64,000 nucleotides of DNA. Source: Winogradskyella undariae (GTDB lineage Bacteria; Bacteroidota; Bacteroidia; Flavobacteriales; Flavobacteriaceae). A model generated the notes under the pieces. That model was not told where the DNA came from. It made no database searches and saw only the letters and a program-made list of their open reading frames with translations. Each line of letters starts with the position of its first letter. Position 1 is the stretch's first letter. The translations under genes were made by a program, and so were the position numbers. The stretch spans positions 1 to 64,000 of the forward strand of contig NZ_JABTEL010000014.1 of the NCBI RefSeq assembly GCF_013285155.1, read 5' to 3'. Below, piece by piece: positions 8,566-48,100 of this stretch.

Positions 8566-11500
8566 TTATTCAACCAAAACTCTAACTCCTTTACTGTGGC
8601 TACTAAATTCTGGAGCATACATACTTTCAATAGTGCTTATACCATTACTCATATCTCCAGCATTATTCACTCGTAAATCGTATTCAAAAATATAAATTCC
8701 TTTAGGTAAATAGTCCATAAAGAAATTGGTAGCAGCATCTTTTGTACTTTCATAATAACCTAAACCATCTTGCCATTTGTATTGCGATAATACATTTACA
8801 GGTTCTAGACCTGCTGCACGCATATCTTTAAGATGCAAAAATTCCATGTTTCTATCAGTTCTTAATTCTATTCTCACTCTAACTAAATCACCAACTTTTA
8901 ATTTCGATTCTGAAGTGATTTCTGTGATTTCTTCACCTTTGTCTGTATTAGATTTTAAGAATAATTTTTTGCTCAATTTTAAAGGTGTTTCTGCGGAAGT
9001 AATTTTATCTAAATCTTCAAAATATTGCCAGTATAAAGCTCCCCAAGCAATGCCTTTTCCTTTTTTTGTAATGGTAACATCAGCTTGTTCGGGTTTTATT
9101 TCTGAGCCATTCCAACTTGTTTTATAATAACCTGTTCCGGCTTCAGATTTTACGTTTTCTAAAGTTGAAGGCGTAATAGTTTCATTACCAACTTTTACAT
9201 CTACTTGTTCAGTAATGCTTAACCAATCGCTGCCTTGTAATAATAACGCGTAAACGGCTTCAGTGGTTGCTTTAGTGGTTTTCCAACGGTTAGTTTGCTT
9301 GTTTTTAAGCAACCATATTTTTAGATTGTCTATAGCTTCGAGATTCTTCGTTTCGCTCATGATAACATTACCAGCTTCAGAAAACACTTCTACCATTAGG
9401 GCTTGAGTTTCAATTGGGGCTTGATACCAATGCCAAGAGTTTGTATTATCTTTCCAATACATACCTAGTTCTTCCGAAGTTATACTGTTCTCTTTTAAAG
9501 ACTTTAAAATTTCACCTGCAGTTCTGGTATCATTTTTTCGGTTCATCGTTAAGGCCATCAAGCCTTTTTCATATAAAGAACGACTTAACCAATACTTTTT
9601 AATCTGACCTTGGTAATAATCCATGATTTTTTCAACTTCAGATGAAGTCTTAATTTCAGGATAAAAACTTCGTGTGTATAAATAATGCAATTGTGTATGT
9701 GATAAATGATCTTTACTTAAATCTGCACTTTTATTATATTTTTTAATGTTTTTATATTCTTGAACAAATTCTGTATCTAAATAATTGATGGCATTTTCAA
9801 TCATAGACATCTCGACTGCACCTGATGTGACAGAAAGTTGTTTTAAATGTCCAAAGCCTGCAATAATATGTTGCGTGATAAAACGATTATCCCGTCCGCC
9901 ATTAAACCAAGGCCAAGCTCCGGATTCTTGTTGATTAGTCTTTAATTTTCGGACTGCAGATTGTAACTCATTATTCATTTTATTAAGGTCGAATAATAAC
10001 GCAATCCGTTTTTTCTGTTCCGTGTTGGATTGAGCATCACGTAACCAAGGGGTTTCTTGTATGAGTAATGATTTCAATTCTTGGTTCTTTTCTAAATTAG
10101 AAAGTAAGGCATCTGTAGATTTCCATTGATTAAAAACGGCTTCAATTCTTGGGTTCGATTTTACAATATGTTGTGCTAAAGCATTGGCATAATAACGTGA
10201 AAATGTTTGCTCATTACAATCGTAAGGATATTCCATTAAATAGGGCAGAGCTTGTACAGCATACCAAGCCGGATTTGAGGTCATCTCTAACGTTAACTTA
10301 TGGTTTGTTAAAGATGTAGAGGTGTTATTTTTTAACTTATCTAATGTAAATGTTTTAGTTTGGTTAGAACGAACCCACATCGGTAGTGTTTCAGTAACGA
10401 GCATTCTATTACTTAAAACAGGTAAGGCATTTTGTTCTCCGTCACTAAAATCTCCAGCTTTTGCTATGATTTTATATTGTACAGCTTGTAAGCCTTCAGG
10501 GATTTTTAATTGCCAAGAAACTTGCGTATTACCTTTAGCATCAACAACAAAATTTTGATTGTTTGAAGTACTCGACAAGATAAGTTGTTTTGAAACATCT
10601 TCACCAGAAACAGCATCTGTTAATACTAATTGAGTAATACCTGATAATTGACTTTCTGTAAGGTTAGAAATTTTAGTACTAATGGTAATTTCATCTCCTT
10701 CTCTTAAAAATCGAGGTGTATTTGGTATCACCATTAATTCCTTTTGTGTTACAGCTTCTAGTTGCGTTACAGCACTTTCTAATGTTTTGGTGTGCGCCAA
10801 AAGTTGTAATTTCCATTTGGTTAAGGCTTCAGGAGCTTTAAAATTGAAGCTTACATTTCCTTCTTTGTCGGTATGTAATTGTGGAAAGAAGAATGCGGTT
10901 TCGTTTAGGTTTTTACGGATGTTTACTTGTTGTAATTCTGTTAGACCAGAATTGGTAGTAATAAGAATAACTCCATTTTTTCCTCTTTCACCATAAAGTG
11001 TTAAATCTTGGGATTTATCAAGGACTGTAATTTCTGTAATATCGTTAGGGTTAAGTGCTGAAAAAGCATCAGCAGTTATAGCCTCTCCGTTTAATAGATA
11101 AAGGGGTTTATTATTTCCTAATAAGGAGGAATTACCTCTTATTCTTACTTGTGTTGCTGCTCCTGGCTGTCCGGATCCTGATACTACTTCCAGTCCATTA
11201 GTTTTTCCGCTTAATATATCATCAAAAGAACCAATTTCTTGTAATCCGGAAGAATCTTCCATTATTGGAGCTACACTTAGTCTAGATTTTCTTTTTAAAT
11301 AACGATTATTCTCAAAACTAAAACCAAACCAGTTTAATTCATCATAGCTTTGATGAGAGTAACTCGTGTTTGTTTTAAAATTATTATACACTCTAAAATT
11401 TGTATTTCCAAAACTTTTTCTAAATGTTTTATTGATTTTTCCGTAGTATAAAGGTTTTTTTAGAGGGTTGAAACTCCAATTATGAGATTTAAATTCATCT

Positions 11501-14500
11501 AAAGAAGCATCATACATGCTTGCTAATAATTCAGCCGAAACTTTATCTCCTTGAGGACCTTTAATTTTAAAACTCCAAGTTTCATCTTGTCCTGGTTGTA
11601 ACTTATCTCTAAATGTTATGGTTTCAATTTCCAAATCTGTTTTAGGGTAGGGAACATTTACGTTAAAACTTTGAGATTTAAATTCATTAAAAGCAGCAAA
11701 AGATGTATGCACAACAAATCCTCCTAAATCATTTTCTAAAACAGGAATTGATATAGTTTCTTTTGAGTTGTTTAGTTTAATAAGTTGTGTCTTTACAATT
11801 TTATTGTCCTTTTCAATTTCTACAGTCACTACAATGTTTTTTGCAGCAGAACCGATAGTGAGCAAAGCTGTATCACCAATGTTATAGCTAGGTTTATTTA
11901 ATTGTCCTTCAAATAATTGATTGTCTGCTATTGTTTTGTCATCAGTACTGAAAATTGAAATATTGGCTTCGTCTTTTAAAGCTTGTCCAAATTTGTCTTT
12001 ACTTTCTAAAACGATAATATATTGTCCGGAATCCCATTTTTTAAGATTCTTTAAGCTAATGCTTTTGTCTTTTTCGGTATTAAAATTAGAACTAAAAACT
12101 TCTTTACCTTTTTTCCATGATGTTACAGAAACTTCGTTATCATAAGATTCGTGAGGAAATAGTTTTTTAAATTCATCTTTAGATAAAACTTGATAGTCTG
12201 GTGCGCTCCATGGTCTTGTTCTTAAAACGTTTCGTGGTGCCTTTAATTTATAGATTTTTAAAGTGCCTTTAGCAGGTGCAAATTCCCCATTTAGATTTTC
12301 AGAAATTAGAGATAATTCTGAGTTCTTTTCTTTTTTATCGATGAATTTTGGAGCAACAACATTAACCGTCATACTATGATAGCCTACATTAACGGTCGTT
12401 GTTACTGTTCTGGTTTCTCCATTAATATCTGTAATGTCAGCAGTAACTTCGTAATTAAATACAGGAAGATTTTCTTTTAAAGCACCGTCATCTGGTAGTG
12501 CTTTAAAAGTGATGTTGAATTCACCTTTATTGTTGGTTTTGATTTCTCCAAAAGTAATTTCTTGTGCTTGAGAATTGTTATATGGTCGTCTCCAATAAAA
12601 CCAACTTGGGTATTGCACTTGGCGTTTTACTCGGTATACAACTTTTGCGTCTGTAATTGCGCTACCAGAAAAAGCAATGGCAGTTCCGTTTACCGTTATA
12701 CTGTCGTTAACTTTATAAGTTTCAGTGATGGGTTGAAACTCAGGTTTAAATTTAGGGCGTTTGTATTCTTCAACTGAAAAGTAATGCTGTTTATTAATGA
12801 TATCAGAAACTAATTTAATATAAAATTGACCTGTTAAACCATTATTTGGGAGGATGAATTCTCCGTGAATTGATCCAAATTCATTAGAAGTAAAAGATTG
12901 TTCTGATACTTTCTCACCATTTGTATTATATAATTCGGCCTTAATTTTTTGTCGTTTTACAACCGATGATTCTTCATTTTTAAATTTTGTAATTATACCT
13001 TTAAAATAAACAGTTTGTCCTGGTCGGTAAATACTTCGGTCTGTAAATAAAAAAGCATTGTATTTGGTGTCGTTATTCTTTATGTCTTCGTGATTTTTAT
13101 AAATACTGTGATTACCAAAATAAGCGGTATCATCTTTAGTACTAATTTTTATTTCAACATCTCTGTAGTAATTCTGATCCTTTTCAAATTCGAATTGAAA
13201 CCTTCCAAAATGATCTGTTGTAAATGTTTTATTAAATCGTTTATCTCTTTGGCTATTAGAATAGGTTATTTCAGCTTTAGCATTGGTAAAAGGTTCACCA
13301 TTTTGTCGATTGATAATTTGGTAATGCTGGCAACCACTTTCAGAACTCTCAATCAAAGCTATATCTGTAACTTGAATATCTGATGTGGCAAAAATATTAT
13401 CCTGAACATCTGCTTTAATAATGTATAGACCATTAGAAAGATTTGGCATTACAATTTCAGTAGTATGCATTTGGAAATCATGCTCTGTTTTTAAGTTTGA
13501 AGCAAAGTTTCTAAAGGTTTTAAGTGAATTTAGAAACTTCGCTTTCTCTTTATATTGATATAATTCGTTATATTTTTCTAATTGTTTTTGGTTGACTTTA
13601 TAAATCTTAAAATCAATGCTATTGATGTTTTTATAAGTCACTAAAACTTTAGAAGGTGTATTAATAGGAATATATTGTTCCCTTAGGATATTAAGGCTTG
13701 GCTCTTTTATTTTTTCAATTATAGACAGACTATTTTTAGTTCCTCTGCTATCTGGGTATTTAGAGCTTATTAAATTGTAAAGTTCTACTGCTTCCTTCAG
13801 TTTCCAACGGTGAGTTTCATCGATAACTCCTGCATTGGTATCACTGTCGTAGCGATTTCCTTGTTGGTAATAAAGTGATGCAATTTCATAATTATAAAGT
13901 GCAGATAATGGAGAATCCTTTAATAATTCAGCTTTTTCTTTAAGTGATTTAAGTAATAACTCTTCTTTGTTTTTAAATGTAGCGTGTTGAAATACAAAAT
14001 TTAAACGTTCAATATCTACAGTTATATACGCTTTTGAAGTTGAATCTTTACTGTGAAATTTTAATAAGTTTTGATAGATTTTTAAAGCATTTCGCTGTAA
14101 TGACAACGTATCTTTTGAAGACAAATCAATCGTTGTAAAAATTTTACTATTAGCAATAAAAGCATCATTATCAATAGTGAATTTGTTTGCTGGTTGTGTA
14201 ATACCGTTTTCGTCTGTTTTATAAAAACTAAGAGCGTTATGACTTAATAAATCATAAAGTGTAGGGCGATATTCTTTAGAGTTTTTAACTTCATTTAAAA
14301 GCGTACTATAATCGGTTAAAGGTGCTTTTTGAAGTAATAAATCATTTTGAAGAGAACGTTGGTAATGGATGTGAATTTCGTTAAATAAAGTTTCTAAATC
14401 CCATGTTCTAAAATCATCACTCGTTTTATTAGTTGTTTTAGATCTGTTGTAAAATTTATAACGATTGTCTCGGTAATATTGCCAATACATAGTGGCTAAC

Positions 14501-14820
14501 ATGTTTTCTAAAAGCTGTTTTGTTGTTGTGTCGTTAATGCTATTTATTTCATTCTTAAACCGATTCACAATATTGAATTGTGCATCTTCTTCAAGCACTA
14601 ACATATATTTACTTGTATATAATAATGCTTTAATACGTTGCTTTTTATTATTTTCTTCAAGGGCGTTATTATAAATAGTTTCAACTAAATCAGAAGCACT
14701 TTTAGTAAGTCCTTTCTTTTCTAATTGATCTACCTCTTTCCATTGATTCTCCTCTTTGTTTTGAGCATTAGAAAAAAAAGCAAAGCAAATTATCATAAGT
14801 AATATTATATAGTTTTTCAT
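8566..14820 (-). CDS. Alpha-2-macroglobulin family protein with embedded SusC-like TonB plug segment
   Basis: A 2084-residue exported protein. The ATG at 14820 gives a clean signal peptide (MKNYIILLMIICFAFFSNAQ); the frame extends 31 residues further but without a plausible export signal. The N-terminal ~400 residues are helical. Repeated macroglobulin beta-sandwich domains follow ('FLFTDRSIYRPGQTVYFKG' is the bacterial A2M signature). A thioester-type site 'DCNEQTF' near residue 1533 keeps the C-x-E-Q pattern, followed by an alpha/alpha-toroid-like region and a receptor-like C-terminus. Between about residues 1205 and 1285 is a segment typical of TonB-dependent receptor plugs: 'SGQPGAATQVRIRGNSSLL', 'KPLYLLNGEAI', 'LNPNDITEITVLDKS', 'LYGERGKNGVILITT'. 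Bacterial A2Ms are thought to trap proteases at the envelope. No PbpC gene is adjacent. The family call is secure; the plug's role is not known. Confidence 0.9.
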   Translation of the reverse strand: MKNYIILLMIICFAFFSNAQNKEENQWKEVDQLEKKGLTKSASDLVETIYNNALEENNKKQRIKALLYTSKYMLVLEEDAQFNIVNRFKNEINSINDTTTKQLLENMLATMYWQYYRDNRYKFYNRSKTTNKTSDDFRTWDLETLFNEIHIHYQRSLQNDLLLQKAPLTDYSTLLNEVKNSKEYRPTLYDLLSHNALSFYKTDENGITQPANKFTIDNDAFIANSKIFTTIDLSSKDTLSLQRNALKIYQNLLKFHSKDSTSKAYITVDIERLNFVFQHATFKNKEELLLKSLKEKAELLKDSPLSALYNYEIASLYYQQGNRYDSDTNAGVIDETHRWKLKEAVELYNLISSKYPDSRGTKNSLSIIEKIKEPSLNILREQYIPINTPSKVLVTYKNINSIDFKIYKVNQKQLEKYNELYQYKEKAKFLNSLKTFRNFASNLKTEHDFQMHTTEIVMPNLSNGLYIIKADVQDNIFATSDIQVTDIALIESSESGCQHYQIINRQNGEPFTNAKAEITYSNSQRDKRFNKTFTTDHFGRFQFEFEKDQNYYRDVEIKISTKDDTAYFGNHSIYKNHEDIKNNDTKYNAFLFTDRSIYRPGQTVYFKGIITKFKNEESSVVKRQKIKAELYNTNGEKVSEQSFTSNEFGSIHGEFILPNNGLTGQFYIKLVSDIINKQHYFSVEEYKRPKFKPEFQPITETYKVNDSITVNGTAIAFSGSAITDAKVVYRVKRQVQYPSWFYWRRPYNNSQAQEITFGEIKTNNKGEFNITFKALPDDGALKENLPVFNYEVTADITDINGETRTVTTTVNVGYHSMTVNVVAPKFIDKKEKNSELSLISENLNGEFAPAKGTLKIYKLKAPRNVLRTRPWSAPDYQVLSKDEFKKLFPHESYDNEVSVTSWKKGKEVFSSNFNTEKDKSISLKNLKKWDSGQYIIVLESKDKFGQALKDEANISIFSTDDKTIADNQLFEGQLNKPSYNIGDTALLTIGSAAKNIVVTVEIEKDNKIVKTQLIKLNNSKETISIPVLENDLGGFVVHTSFAAFNEFKSQSFNVNVPYPKTDLEIETITFRDKLQPGQDETWSFKIKGPQGDKVSAELLASMYDASLDEFKSHNWSFNPLKKPLYYGKINKTFRKSFGNTNFRVYNNFKTNTSYSHQSYDELNWFGFSFENNRYLKRKSRLSVAPIMEDSSGLQEIGSFDDILSGKTNGLEVVSGSGQPGAATQVRIRGNSSLLGNNKPLYLLNGEAITADAFSALNPNDITEITVLDKSQDLTLYGERGKNGVILITTNSGLTELQQVNIRKNLNETAFFFPQLHTDKEGNVSFNFKAPEALTKWKLQLLAHTKTLESAVTQLEAVTQKELMVIPNTPRFLREGDEITISTKISNLTESQLSGITQLVLTDAVSGEDVSKQLILSSTSNNQNFVVDAKGNTQVSWQLKIPEGLQAVQYKIIAKAGDFSDGEQNALPVLSNRMLVTETLPMWVRSNQTKTFTLDKLKNNTSTSLTNHKLTLEMTSNPAWYAVQALPYLMEYPYDCNEQTFSRYYANALAQHIVKSNPRIEAVFNQWKSTDALLSNLEKNQELKSLLIQETPWLRDAQSNTEQKKRIALLFDLNKMNNELQSAVRKLKTNQQESGAWPWFNGGRDNRFITQHIIAGFGHLKQLSVTSGAVEMSMIENAINYLDTEFVQEYKNIKKYNKSADLSKDHLSHTQLHYLYTRSFYPEIKTSSEVEKIMDYYQGQIKKYWLSRSLYEKGLMALTMNRKNDTRTAGEILKSLKENSITSEELGMYWKDNTNSWHWYQAPIETQALMVEVFSEAGNVIMSETKNLEAIDNLKIWLLKNKQTNRWKTTKATTEAVYALLLQGSDWLSITEQVDVKVGNETITPSTLENVKSEAGTGYYKTSWNGSEIKPEQADVTITKKGKGIAWGALYWQYFEDLDKITSAETPLKLSKKLFLKSNTDKGEEITEITSESKLKVGDLVRVRIELRTDRNMEFLHLKDMRAAGLEPVNVLSQYKWQDGLGYYESTKDAATNFFMDYLPKGIYIFEYDLRVNNAGDMSNGISTIESMYAPEFSSHSKGVRVLVE

Positions 14821-14970
14821 TGATCTCAGTTTTTCTACAAAGTACTCACAAAAGTTAGTCCAAAAAAAGGAAAAAATAGTGAAAGCTTCATATGAATGAG
14901 TGAAGTTAAACAATTTGCAAGTGAAATGGAACGTTATTCAATTAAGGCTTTATGACTAAAACTTAAATTG

Positions 14971-14978
14971 TATTTTTG
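14971..14978 (+). promoter_or_regulatory. Promoter -7 box (TATTTTTG) of the TPR gene
   Basis: TATTTTTG ends 18 bases before the ATG at 14997. A TTG start at 14976 would fall inside this box and is rejected. Confidence 0.6.
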
Positions 14979-14996
14979 TTTAATAACTATAATTAT

Positions 14997-15950
14997 ATGT
15001 ATCGATTCTTTTGGATTTTATTAGTGTCTTCAATGTGTTTTTCTCAGACATCAAAAGAAAAGGCAGAAACCTTTATTGAAAAAAAAGAGTTTAAAAAAGC
15101 ACAGAGTGAGTTGCTTTTGTTTTTGAAAACCAATCCTAAAGATATAGATGCTATTGAATTATTGGGAGACGCTTATGGGCATCAGAAAAAATGGGATGAT
15201 GCCATTTCTCAATATCAATATTTAAGTCAGAACCATCCTAAGAATGCTAATTATCAGTATAAGTACGGAGGTGCTTTAGGGATGAAAGCTTTGAGTATTA
15301 GTAAAATTAAAGCACTCGGTATTATCGGAGATGTAAAAGAAGCGTTTTTAAAAGCAGCAGAATTAGATCCAAAACATATTGATGCGCGTTGGGCTTTGGT
15401 AGAATTATATGTTTCATTACCAGGAATTATAGGAGGAAGTACATCTAAAGCCTTAGATTATGCAGAGGAATTAGAAAAATTATCTAAAGTAGATGGTTAC
15501 TTAGCAAAAGGTTATGTTTACGAGTATGATGACGAACCAAAACTTGCTGAAAAATATTATAGATTAGCGATTAAAGTTGGCGGGTCTATAACTTGTTTTG
15601 AAAAATTAACGTCCTTCTACGAAGGACAAAATCAACCTGATAAGGCAATTTCTAATTTAGAAGCAGCACAACAAAAGCACCAACGTAATGCAATGCATTA
15701 TCAAATAGGAAAAGTTTCTGCAGATTACAACATTCAGTTAGATAAAGGAGAAAAATGTTTAAAAGCTTATTTATCTCATCATTCTGCAAAAGATGGGGTG
15801 CCAAAAGCGTGGGCTTATTATCGATTAGCTCAAATTTATAAACATAGAGGTCATAAAACGGAAGCTTTAAAATGGATAAATAAAGCAATATCTGGTTTAC
15901 CAGAAATAGAAGTCTTTAAAAAAGAAAAAACAGTTATTTCTAAACTGTAG
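14997..15950 (+). CDS. Secreted or periplasmic TPR-repeat protein
   Basis: A 317-residue protein with a signal peptide (MYRFFWILLVSSMCFSQ) and at least four or five tetratricopeptide repeats. Examples are 'DAIELLGDAYGHQKKWDDAISQY', 'AFLKAAELDPKHIDARWALVEL', 'AEKYYRLAIKVGGS', 'PKAWAYYRLAQIYKHRGHKT' and 'EALKWINKAISGLPEI'. TPR arrays bind partner proteins; the partner is not identifiable. It diverges from the macroglobulin gene across a ~175-base spacer, which suggests but does not prove a shared role at the envelope. The ATG at 14997 follows the promoter box; the start is well supported. Confidence 0.85.
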   Translation: MYRFFWILLVSSMCFSQTSKEKAETFIEKKEFKKAQSELLLFLKTNPKDIDAIELLGDAYGHQKKWDDAISQYQYLSQNHPKNANYQYKYGGALGMKALSISKIKALGIIGDVKEAFLKAAELDPKHIDARWALVELYVSLPGIIGGSTSKALDYAEELEKLSKVDGYLAKGYVYEYDDEPKLAEKYYRLAIKVGGSITCFEKLTSFYEGQNQPDKAISNLEAAQQKHQRNAMHYQIGKVSADYNIQLDKGEKCLKAYLSHHSAKDGVPKAWAYYRLAQIYKHRGHKTEALKWINKAISGLPEIEVFKKEKTVISKL

Positions 15951-45163: not shown

Positions 45164-48100
45164 TTATTTTTTACGTAAATCTAACGTATATGGGAATTCA
45201 AAATTAATAGGTAATTCTTTGTAAGTAAAACTTTTTGAACTATTATTTTTCTCAACCGATCTATTTGGACTTTCCGTTTCTTGATTAATGTTTTCTACCG
45301 GATTAATTTCACCTTGTGTATGACCAAATTCCCAAAAACGATTGATTCTTCTAGACTCAGCTTCAAAACTATTTATAGGATAAGCATCGTAAGATCTTCC
45401 GCCAGGATGTGCTACAAAATACGTACAACCACCAATAGATCGCTTATTCCAGGTATCTACAACATCAAAAACTAGAGGGGTATCTTCTGAAATGGTTGGG
45501 TGTAAAGCCGAATATGGATTCCATGCTTTATAACGAATACCTGCAACATATTCGCCGCGAACTCCTGTGTTCTTCAATTGTATTTTTACGCCGTTACAAG
45601 TCAATACAAAGCGTTCATCTATAAAATTAGAAACTTTTACTTGTAATCTCTCAAGAGAAGAATCTACATATCTTGCCGTTCCGCCGCCAGTCATTTCTTC
45701 ACCTAGAACATTCCAAGGTTCAATTCCTGCTCTTAATTCTAAATGAATATTGTTAATTTCAACCATACCATGCAGCGGAAATCTAAATTCGAAAAATGGA
45801 TTAAACCAATCTTCTTCAAATTGATAACCTGCTTTATTTAATTGAGAAACAATGTCTTTAATATCTTCTCTTACATAATGTTCTATTAAGAATTTATCAT
45901 GTAATTCGGTTCCCCAACGTACTAAATTATGTTCGTATGGTTTTTTCCAAAACCAAGACACTAAGGTTCTAACGAGCAACATTTGTACGAGACTCATTTT
46001 AGGGTGTGGTGGCATATCAAAACCACGTAATTCTAAAATCCCTAAACGTCCTGTTGAAGAATCTGGTGAGTATAATTTATCGATACAGAATTCTGCTCTA
46101 TGCGTATTTCCTGTTAAATCGGTTAAAAGGTGCCTAAATAAACGGTCGGTTAACCAAAATGGAACTTCGCCATCTTTTGGGATTTGGCTAAAGGCAATTT
46201 CTAGTTCGTATAAACTATCTGTTCTAGCTTCATCTATTCTTGGAGCCTGACTTGTTGGTCCCACAAATGATCCTGAAAATAAGTAACTTAAACCAGGGTG
46301 ATGTTGCCAAAAGGTTAATAAACTTCTTAGTAAACTTGGTTGACGAAGTAGTGGACTATCAGCTGGACTTGTACCTCCTAAAGTAACGTGATTTCCACCT
46401 CCAGTTCCGGTATGTTTACCATCGAGCATAAATTTCTCAGTTCCTAAACGCGATAATTTGGCTTGCTCATAAAAAGTAAATGTATTATGACATAAATCTT
46501 TCCAATTGGTTACCGGATGCACATTAACTTCAATAACACCTGGATCTGGTGTAATTTTAAGTGACTCTAGTCTGTTATCTTTTGGCGGATCGTAACCTTC
46601 CATAATAACAGGAACATCTAATTCTTTGGCTGTAAATTCAATCGCTGTAATTAAATCTAAGAAACTTTCTGCCGAATCTAAAGGCGGTAAGAATAAATAG
46701 AGTTTACCTTCTCTTACTTCTGCACAGATTGCTGTTCTTACAAAATAGTTAGGTTGGTTTGGGTCTAAACCGTTTTCAATATAATCTTGATGCCTTTTCT
46801 TTATGATATTTCTAAAACTTGGTAAACGTTTCTTTTTAGAAAATAGATCAGGTTCATAAGAAGGAAAAATTTCGTGCTCAGGTTTCTCTTGTAAAGAATT
46901 TAAAGGTAATCTTAATCCCATTGGCGAATTCCCGGGGGTTAGAAATAAATGTTGTCTTCTAAACGTCCATTCGCTTGTAAACCATTTTCCTTGTGTATTA
47001 TTTAAAGGTAATAAATGCCCCACAGGCTCGGATGTTCCACCTTCTAATATTTCCTTTAATTTATTTTTTACAAGTGTATTATCTCTGTCCTTGGTAGGGT
47101 CGATGTCTATAGGTAGGTTTCCGTGTTCCCATAAAAAGTAGAACGCATCTTCGAAACCAGGTAGAATATGCTGCGTAGAAACACCTAAGTATTTGGTTAA
47201 GGTTTCTAAAAATAACTTATCTGTATGTTTAGGAATAACAATAGCATCTGCAAAGGTTTCTAAATATTTTTTATCAAACCAAATAGGTCTTCCATCTTTA
47301 CGCCAACAAATTTCTATTTGCCATCTTGGTAAAGGTTCTCCAGGATACCATTTTCCTTGTGCATGATGAAAAACACCACGATGACCAAACTCTTCATATA
47401 ACCGTTTAGATAAGTCTTTAGCTAGTTTTCTTTTGTATGGACCATCTGCAGCTGTGTTCCATTCAGGGGATTCTAAATCATCAATTGAAATAAACGTAGG
47501 TTCGCCTCCCATAGTTAAGCGAACATCGTTTTTTTGAAGTTGTTTTTCTACTTTATTTCCAAGCTTATCTATGGCTTTCCATTGTTCTTCTGTATAAGGT
47601 TTTGTAACCCTTGGTGATTCTAAAATTCGTTTTACAGAATTTTCAAAGAAAAATTCTGTTTCACAAACATCTGTCATACCCGAAACCGGAGCTGCACTTT
47701 CAAAAGAAGGCGTACAAGCCAATGGTATATGACCTTCACCTGCTAATAACCCCGAAGTGGCATCAAAACCAATCCAACCAGCACCAGGTAGGTAAACTTC
47801 TGCCCAAGCGTGTAAATCTGTAAAATCTTCCTCAGGTCCTGAAGGTCCGTCTAAAGACTTTTCATCAGATTTTAATTGTACTAAATAACCGGAAACAAAA
47901 CGTGCCCCAAAACCTAAATGACGTAAGGTTTGTACAAATAACCAAGCATAATCTCTACAAGATCCTTTTTTAGTTTCAAGAGTTTCTTCGCAAGTTTGTA
48001 CACCAGGATCCATTCGGATATTATAACTTAGATATTCATAAATTTTCTGATTGATATCTATTAGAAAATAGATCGTTTTCCTCGGTGTATAATCTAAGGT

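Follow-up and report, generated by a model that had tools for sequence, protein, structure and literature searches.

Introduction

The periplasmic alpha-2-macroglobulins (A2Ms) of Escherichia coli and Salmonella (ECAM/YfhM and SaA2M) are described as broad-spectrum protease traps, built of macroglobulin (MG) domains, with a C-x-E-Q thioester motif and a largely disordered bait that lies within one macroglobulin domain (PMC4498604). When the bait of an A2M is cut, the bait retracts, the trap collapses and the thioester is exposed; an engineered bait sequence can select the protease, and human A2M also works with a Gly-Ser bait (PMC9352918, PMC8267569). In complement C3 and C5 a foreign folded domain, the anaphylatoxin, stands at the cleavage site of this superfamily (PMC9352918). 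Here we describe an A2M gene of Winogradskyella undariae in which a plug of the type found in SusC, a TonB-dependent outer-membrane receptor, appears to lie at the position of the bait. The gene is in a stretch of 64,000 nucleotides (assembly GCF_013285155.1, contig NZ_JABTEL010000014.1, positions 1 to 64,000), which we call the window. Other loci and genomes are given by our own L and G numbers.

Receptors of the SusC/RagA group, such as RagA and BT1763, have an N-terminal extension (NTE), a TonB box and a plug. In BT1763 the NTE corresponds to PF13715 and is described as having no known function, whereas DEVVVTG is a functional TonB box that the receptor needs (PMC7782687). All three parts can be recognised in the segments that we found in A2Ms, which we refer to as cassettes, but the cassettes have no beta-barrel and their receptor parts are often partial or permuted. 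The cassettes of the window type are also longer than the E. coli bait and contain receptor domains, whereas the stretch of E. coli A2M that we tested has none of five SusC motifs; compared with C3 and C5, the domain at the cleavage position is a receptor plug or NTE and is strongly variable between species. That A2M and plug domains co-occur is presumably visible in domain databases. The apparent novelty is that a bait cassette changes across the phylum and that the plug is one of its states. Among the literature matches listed, all open-access papers, none describes an A2M with SusC parts, and the main text of a paper on the Bacteroidota BAM complex (PMC12611786) does not contain the word macroglobulin.

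A SusC-type plug inside an alpha-2-macroglobulin

An earlier note on the window, made from its sequence, had proposed an A2M with an embedded SusC-type TonB plug, and this is borne out by Pfam, by the NCBIfam SusC model TIGR04056 and by the similarity to RagA. Positions 109-219 (of 981) of TIGR04056 match residues 1194-1305 with an E value of 2.3e-27, which is below the model's full-length cut-off because the window protein carries this part only, and among solved structures those of RagA/SusC receptors match the plug stretch best (6sml_B over residues 1182-1293, E 4.7e-14). The plug strings that had been quoted and the C-x-E-Q site (C-N-E-Q, from residue 1535) are both present. Chance resemblance to SusC is ruled out by the curated models together with the shuffles described below. 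The window protein has the features of a bacterial A2M, with the MG2, bait-region, A2M and bMG10 domains in that order and the thioester motif, and its top four named orthologues are from Winogradskyella, at 83-84% identity. By analogy with bacterial A2Ms, it is predicted to trap proteases when cleaved. The features are as follows:

8566..14820, minus strand: A2M gene of the Bacteroidota type, 2084 residues, open reading frame from ATG
14761..14820, minus strand: putative signal peptide, residues 1-20 (sequence inspection; no lipobox seen by eye)
12802..13056, minus strand: MG2 domain, residues 589-673 (Pfam, 80.5 bits)
11566..11904, minus strand: A2M bait-region domain (A2M_BRD, PF07703), residues 973-1085 (Pfam, 25.6 bits)
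10918..11490, minus strand: insert at the bait position, residues 1111-1301, flanked by SAELLASMYDASLDEF and RKNLNETAFFFPQL (from alignment of orthologues and from hhalign against E. coli A2M)
10969..11259, minus strand: SusC-type TonB plug, residues 1188-1284 (Pfam Plug PF07715, 35.6 bits, cut-off 23.9)
10954..11043, minus strand: SusC/RagA signature TIGR04057, residues 1260-1289 (22.8 bits, E 5.7e-5, below its own cut-off of 46.2)
10951..11100, minus strand: C-terminal half of the plug, residues 1241-1290, predicted to be folded (AlphaFold2 pLDDT 77-88 per 10-residue block)
10639..10899, minus strand: A2M domain PF00207, residues 1308-1394, immediately after the insert (Pfam, 63.3 bits)
10207..10218, minus strand: thioester motif C-N-E-Q, residues 1535-1538 (Cys conserved in orthologues)
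8608..8979, minus strand: bMG10 domain, residues 1948-2071 (Pfam, 109.9 bits)

A TTG at 14913, upstream of the ATG, is a possible alternative start. The hypervariable cassette proper is the portion of the insert downstream of WFGFSF.

Downstream of the plug there is no 22-stranded outer-membrane barrel and the A2M domain follows instead; the insert has no recognisable TonB box (score -12.0 bits, equalled by 185 of 300 shuffled sequences), and PF13715 is absent from the Pfam matches of the protein. Lacking barrel, TonB box and NTE, the window protein is an A2M and not a SusC receptor. The earlier note had advised modelling. In an AlphaFold2 model of residues 971-1431 (mean pLDDT 61.7) the C-terminal half of the plug is predicted to be folded, whereas residues 1143-1235 fall below 50 and the fold of the plug as a whole was not confirmed. 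The VIA-align rows for this model include no SusC plug, one domain filling the whole list.

The same genome has a second A2M, of the ECAM type and with a short, plain bait (L002, G000:C43:37122-37367). A gene for a tetratricopeptide repeat (TPR) protein, at 14976-15950 of the window, is divergent from the A2M gene. A relative of the TPR gene lies near the A2M gene in 38 of 70 named loci, and for a Mur ligase gene the number is 45; we considered this neighbourhood as a functional clue and set it aside, since no functional link was seen.

Position of the plug relative to the bait

Pfam places the plug after the bait-region domain and before the A2M domain. When the window protein was compared by hhalign with A2M of E. 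coli K-12, one of the two sides being a single sequence, residues 760-902 of the E. coli protein paired with window residues 972-1106 (E 0.0025, probability 12%) and residues 1024-1050 with window residues 1365-1391 (E 0.0016, probability 16%). The E. coli bait, whose residues 923-942 have no density in the crystal (PMC4498604), falls between these two blocks, and the plug is therefore opposite it. The window model also resembles Salmonella A2M (4u4j; Z 9.1, rmsd 4.2, 173 aligned positions, residues 1-365 of the model and 751-985 of the chain) and matches complement C3, amid many macroglobulin and immunoglobulin-like rows. Searched whole against the PDB, the window protein matched bacterial A2M around MG2 only (E 0.006). 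We conclude, on the strength of alignments and not of structure, that the plug probably occupies the bait position of the A2M.

Bait-position inserts in other genomes

How widely does the bait position hold receptor material? The portion of the A2M that follows the plug has a match in 84 of 149 genomes of the family, six of which are weak (E 7e-8 to 1e-3) and have the frame length of an ECAM-type paralogue. An alignment of this portion matched 75 of 296 genomes in a search across the phylum, some of them weakly. Inserts were taken from 70 loci of the family, from 78 of 80 named contigs (L143 and L158 yielded no left flank) and from 69 loci that came from the phylum-wide search and additional places in the family, 217 in total and 200 distinct, of which 154 are from the family and 46 from outside it. 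They range in length from 108 to 305 residues.

The longest inserts look like the N-terminus of a SusC protein, with an NTE (carboxypeptidase-regulatory-like), a TonB box of the form L-D-E-V-V-V-x-G-Y-G and a plug up to G-V-I-I-I-T-T-K. A model of an orthologue, L103 (mean pLDDT 60.9), had as its top Foldseek match the SusC NTE 9hfj, with a TM score of 0.88 by target and 1.6 A over 75 columns. Curated models applied at E 0.01 to 79 segments (that of the window and 78 from named contigs) found the SusC model in 32, PF13715 in 15, the SusC signature in 11 and Plug in eight. All inserted domains that we could name by eye were a receptor N-terminus or NTE-like, not barrel.

We built five motif matrices, for the TonB box, the helix, the IRG strand, the PLYVVDG strand and the plug end, from 20 SusC proteins (38 loci were tried, 21 yielded a protein and L292, a near copy, was removed), with background frequencies and pseudocounts chosen by hand. 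At a threshold of no more than 3 of 300 shuffles, at which about 2.05 of the 154 family inserts and about 0.61 of the 46 outside inserts are expected by chance for each motif, the TonB box was found in 84 family inserts, the helix in 75, the IRG strand in 46, the PLYVVDG strand in 31 and the plug end in 35; the corresponding numbers outside the family are 8, 9, 8, 2 and 2. At least one motif at no more than 1 of 300 shuffles was present in 113 of the 154 (about 5.1 expected) and in 15 of the 46 (about 1.5 expected). These counts cover related sequences and are not numbers of independent events.

Of 599 chunks taken from the same proteins as controls, one scored for the helix, five for the IRG strand, two for the PLYVVDG strand and one for the plug end, with about four expected for each. 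The TonB box was found by the shuffle test in 48 of the control chunks (about four expected), a number in which homologous chunks are counted repeatedly; at a raw score of at least 12 bits it was found in 57 of the 200 inserts and in none of the 599 chunks. None of the five motifs was found in the baits of four ECAM-type paralogues (L285, L287 and L288, of seven loci, were not located) and of E. coli A2M.

The earlier note named two things that would refute its reading, orthologues without the segment or evidence of a recent chance insertion free of selection. Such orthologues exist, for the plug end (at no more than 1 of 300 shuffles) is present in 34 of the 200 distinct inserts, with L109 among these likely to be false, and of eight Winogradskyella or same-genus inserts that we viewed four have a plug and four do not. 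A chance insertion does not follow from this, because a dedicated cassette recurrently holds SusC parts and because two well-dated pairs of cassettes are under purifying selection.

Several further loci deserve mention. Three adjacent A2M copies (L074, L079 and L226) lie at 488-509 kb of G033:C1, two of which by eye have an NTE-like cassette and one no recognisable SusC material. In L183, L185 and L186, from another family of the phylum, the bait has a carboxypeptidase-regulatory-like stretch and, by eye, no SusC motifs, and from these loci it may be that NTE-like domains entered the A2M bait more than once. The NCBIfam model BamP matches nine of the 79 segments, these being members with NTE cassettes, and Foldseek ranks 9n2d_E, from the BAM complex of F. 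johnsoniae, second for the L103 model; a BAM subunit may thus share an NTE-like domain with the cassettes.

Two other proteins of the W. undariae genome also carry N-terminal parts of SusC without being barrel proteins, and only in the A2M are these parts at a bait position. One is a YfbK-type VWA protein (L240, 103-2187 minus; G000:C1, TIGR04056 match at 69506-70126), whose N-terminus has a SusC NTE, what by eye resembles a TonB box, and then a plug, with no barrel. The other is an M56 (BlaR1-like) peptidase (L230, 683-2623 plus; G000:C2, TIGR04056 match at 46771-47007), which carries the C-terminal half of a plug according to the SusC model and is not listed by Pfam Plug.

Permutation and turnover of the cassette

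Where TonB box and helix are both significant, their order is that of SusC in 23 family inserts and reversed in 22, and it is reversed in both of the two cases outside the family. On a tree of the A2M bodies this order requires at least eight changes among 47 rows. Deletion alone is insufficient to have produced such permuted cassettes.

The cassette can also differ greatly between otherwise similar proteins. Among 91 pairs with a body identity of at least 84%, Winogradskyella L081 and L082 are 94% identical in the body, 95% in the left flank and 28% in the cassette, with equivalent values of 91, 98 and 33% for L029/L098 and 95, 89 and 37% for L013/L087. In 60-residue blocks L081 and L082 are 83-100% identical outside the insert and 76, 27 and 58% identical in the three blocks across it. 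Other pairs have retained their cassette (L148/L150, cassette 94% and body 87%; L174/L176, 87% and 89%). Synonymous divergence of L148/L150 is 0.21 in the cassette and 0.60 in the following 400 residues, which is a weak sign of cassette exchange, as residues 420-540 of this pair are equally alike. Mapped on the body tree under parsimony, the plug end (33 carriers) requires 23 changes (mean of shuffled labels 31.0) and the insert length class 37 (shuffled mean 53.0). This site of the A2M holds a cassette that can be replaced and that in many cases consists of N-terminal parts of SusC, sometimes permuted.

Origin of the plugs and selection on the cassettes

Compared with 58 other rows, the window plug is nearest to that of a SusC protein of its own genome (L233, 54%) and then to the insert of L073 (47%). 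At the DNA level the window insert had no significant match to the own-genome SusC and TonB-dependent receptor (TBDT) loci that were fetched (best E 0.06), and the idea that the window insert was recently captured from one of the genome's SusC genes is therefore unsupported. A tree was made of 28 inserts and 24 SusC/TBDT plugs. The receptors came from 58 loci, namely L231-L260 and L290-L318 except for L241 (the A2M gene of the window), and a plug end was obtained from 26 of them; left out were near copies (L292, L150_ins and L176_ins), a false motif hit (L109_ins) and long branches (L256_sus, L021_ins, L155_ins and L221_ins). The inserts need six label changes on this tree (shuffled mean 17.5) and form a single clade in none of 200 bootstrap trees, and a single insert clade was not rejected by the AU test (p 0.456). 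We favour an old capture that was probably followed by loss, rearrangement and exchange, since the junctions on the two sides of long cassettes seem, by eye, to be shared.

Ratios of non-synonymous to synonymous change (dN/dS) were computed for 16 chosen pairs, a set biased toward conserved cassettes by the need for alignment. The sole pairs with a cassette dS below 0.5 are L148/L150 (dN/dS 0.12, dS 0.21) and L174/L176 (0.21, dS 0.39), and these two best-dated SusC-derived pairs show purifying selection on the cassette. In ten pairs cassette dS is above 1, hence near saturation, with dN/dS of 0.16-0.45. Of the others, L088/L094 gave 0.57, L183/L185 (no SusC motif) 0.28 and L013/L087, whose cassettes are poorly alignable, 1.01, and L081/L082 gives no value. 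Body dN/dS across the pairs is 0.04-0.18. The thioester cysteine is retained in 148 of 154 family proteins and 33 of 46 outside the family, and CxEQ is present in 32 of the 34 plug carriers, indicating that plug-bearing proteins have kept the chemistry of the trap.

Discussion

What might a receptor plug do at the bait position of a protease trap? The earlier note offered three options, a bait, a docking site for a TonB-receptor partner and a structural module reused outside a barrel. The last is true as a description, and the bait is the best supported of the three because the plug sits where the bait of bacterial A2Ms sits. If so, the SusC-derived cassette of a thioester-bearing A2M would be the part that gets cut. 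A bait made from a receptor N-terminus would have a cleavage profile matching that of the TonB-dependent receptors of the cell itself, the proteases dangerous to these receptors would thereby be trapped, making the cassette an integrated decoy, and turnover of cassettes would follow changes in the proteases. In our estimation this reading, a bait derived from SusC that lends the trap a cleavage profile like that of TonB receptors, is about as likely to be right as wrong.

Several observations weigh against this proposal. A TonB plug normally sits within a barrel, so that the NTE or the TonB box is more readily imagined as mimicking what a protease attacks, and the window cassette has a plug only, with no TonB box. 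The cassettes are long and partly folded, and a longer bait predisposes human A2M to collapse (PMC9352918). Furthermore, no significant SusC motif was found in 41 of the 154 family inserts and 31 of the 46 outside inserts. The positional evidence has its own weak points: hhalign gave low probabilities for both matches with E. coli A2M (12 and 16%), the overall quality of both models is poor (mean pLDDT 61.7 and 60.9), and a PDB profile search with the bait region returned no significant A2M (best 7s62_A, E 0.97). As to the identification of the plug itself, the Plug model, run over all six frames of the genome, did not list it among its 35 matches, whereas the SusC model does find it (G000:C5:10906-11241, E 3.4e-28).

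The inserts without motifs would be accounted for if the bait position simply takes any protease-sensitive sequence, a SusC N-terminus having been captured once or a few times and then left to decay, rearrangement and exchange among A2M genes, its SusC identity being of no consequence. Support for such a permissive position can be found in human A2M, which functions with a Gly-Ser bait (PMC8267569), in the single origin of the plugs that the AU test did not reject, in the left and right junctions that the long cassettes seem by eye to share, and in the SusC genes themselves, which are multicopy in the host genomes. Yet mere filler would not be expected to give the low dN/dS of the two best-dated SusC-derived pairs, to draw on receptor N-termini or NTE-like domains in every nameable case and never on the barrel, to carry SusC motifs outside the family too (15 of 46), or to keep these motifs when their order is altered, as in the 22 of 45 family inserts and two of two outside inserts with box and helix reversed. 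We consider filler somewhat unlikely, if a serious competitor. A mechanical role is appreciably less probable still, namely that the TonB box and plug of a cassette bind TonB, which would hold, pull or unfold the bait and so position or prime the trap near the outer membrane. The TonB box is indeed the commonest of the five motifs in family inserts, it is the element required in BT1763 (PMC7782687), and two barrel-less proteins of the genome bear parts of the same module; nonetheless the window cassette itself has no such box, and at the same threshold of 3 of 300 shuffles it is missing from 70 of the 154 family inserts. As for a fragment of SusC misassembled into an A2M gene, multicopy SusC genes can mislead assembly, but the frame is open across 2084 codons, at the DNA level the segment does not significantly match the fetched receptor loci of its own genome, and other genomes have a plug at the same place, among them two that are a single contig (G113 = L065 and G014 = L068). 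We give this explanation practically no weight, and an artefact of assembly or annotation is refuted by the recurrence of the arrangement across many genera.

To return to the decoy bait, the proposal can be extended to the whole phylum, with fragments of the cell's own TonB receptors serving as bait in cassettes that lineages of the Bacteroidota rapidly swap, proteases or protease-type toxins aimed at receptor N-termini springing the covalent trap, and the VWA and M56 proteins acting as parallel decoy sensors. This wider scheme is speculative and, we think, unlikely.

If the SusC-derived segment is the bait, it would be a new way of aiming a protease trap. That the cassettes draw on one receptor family, change fast and yet are under purifying selection in datable pairs suggests that the identity of the bait matters and may point to the targets of the trap. 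Two questions thereby become testable: which proteases are the natural ones of bacterial A2Ms, and why barrel-less proteins of the Bacteroidota carry SusC N-terminal modules.

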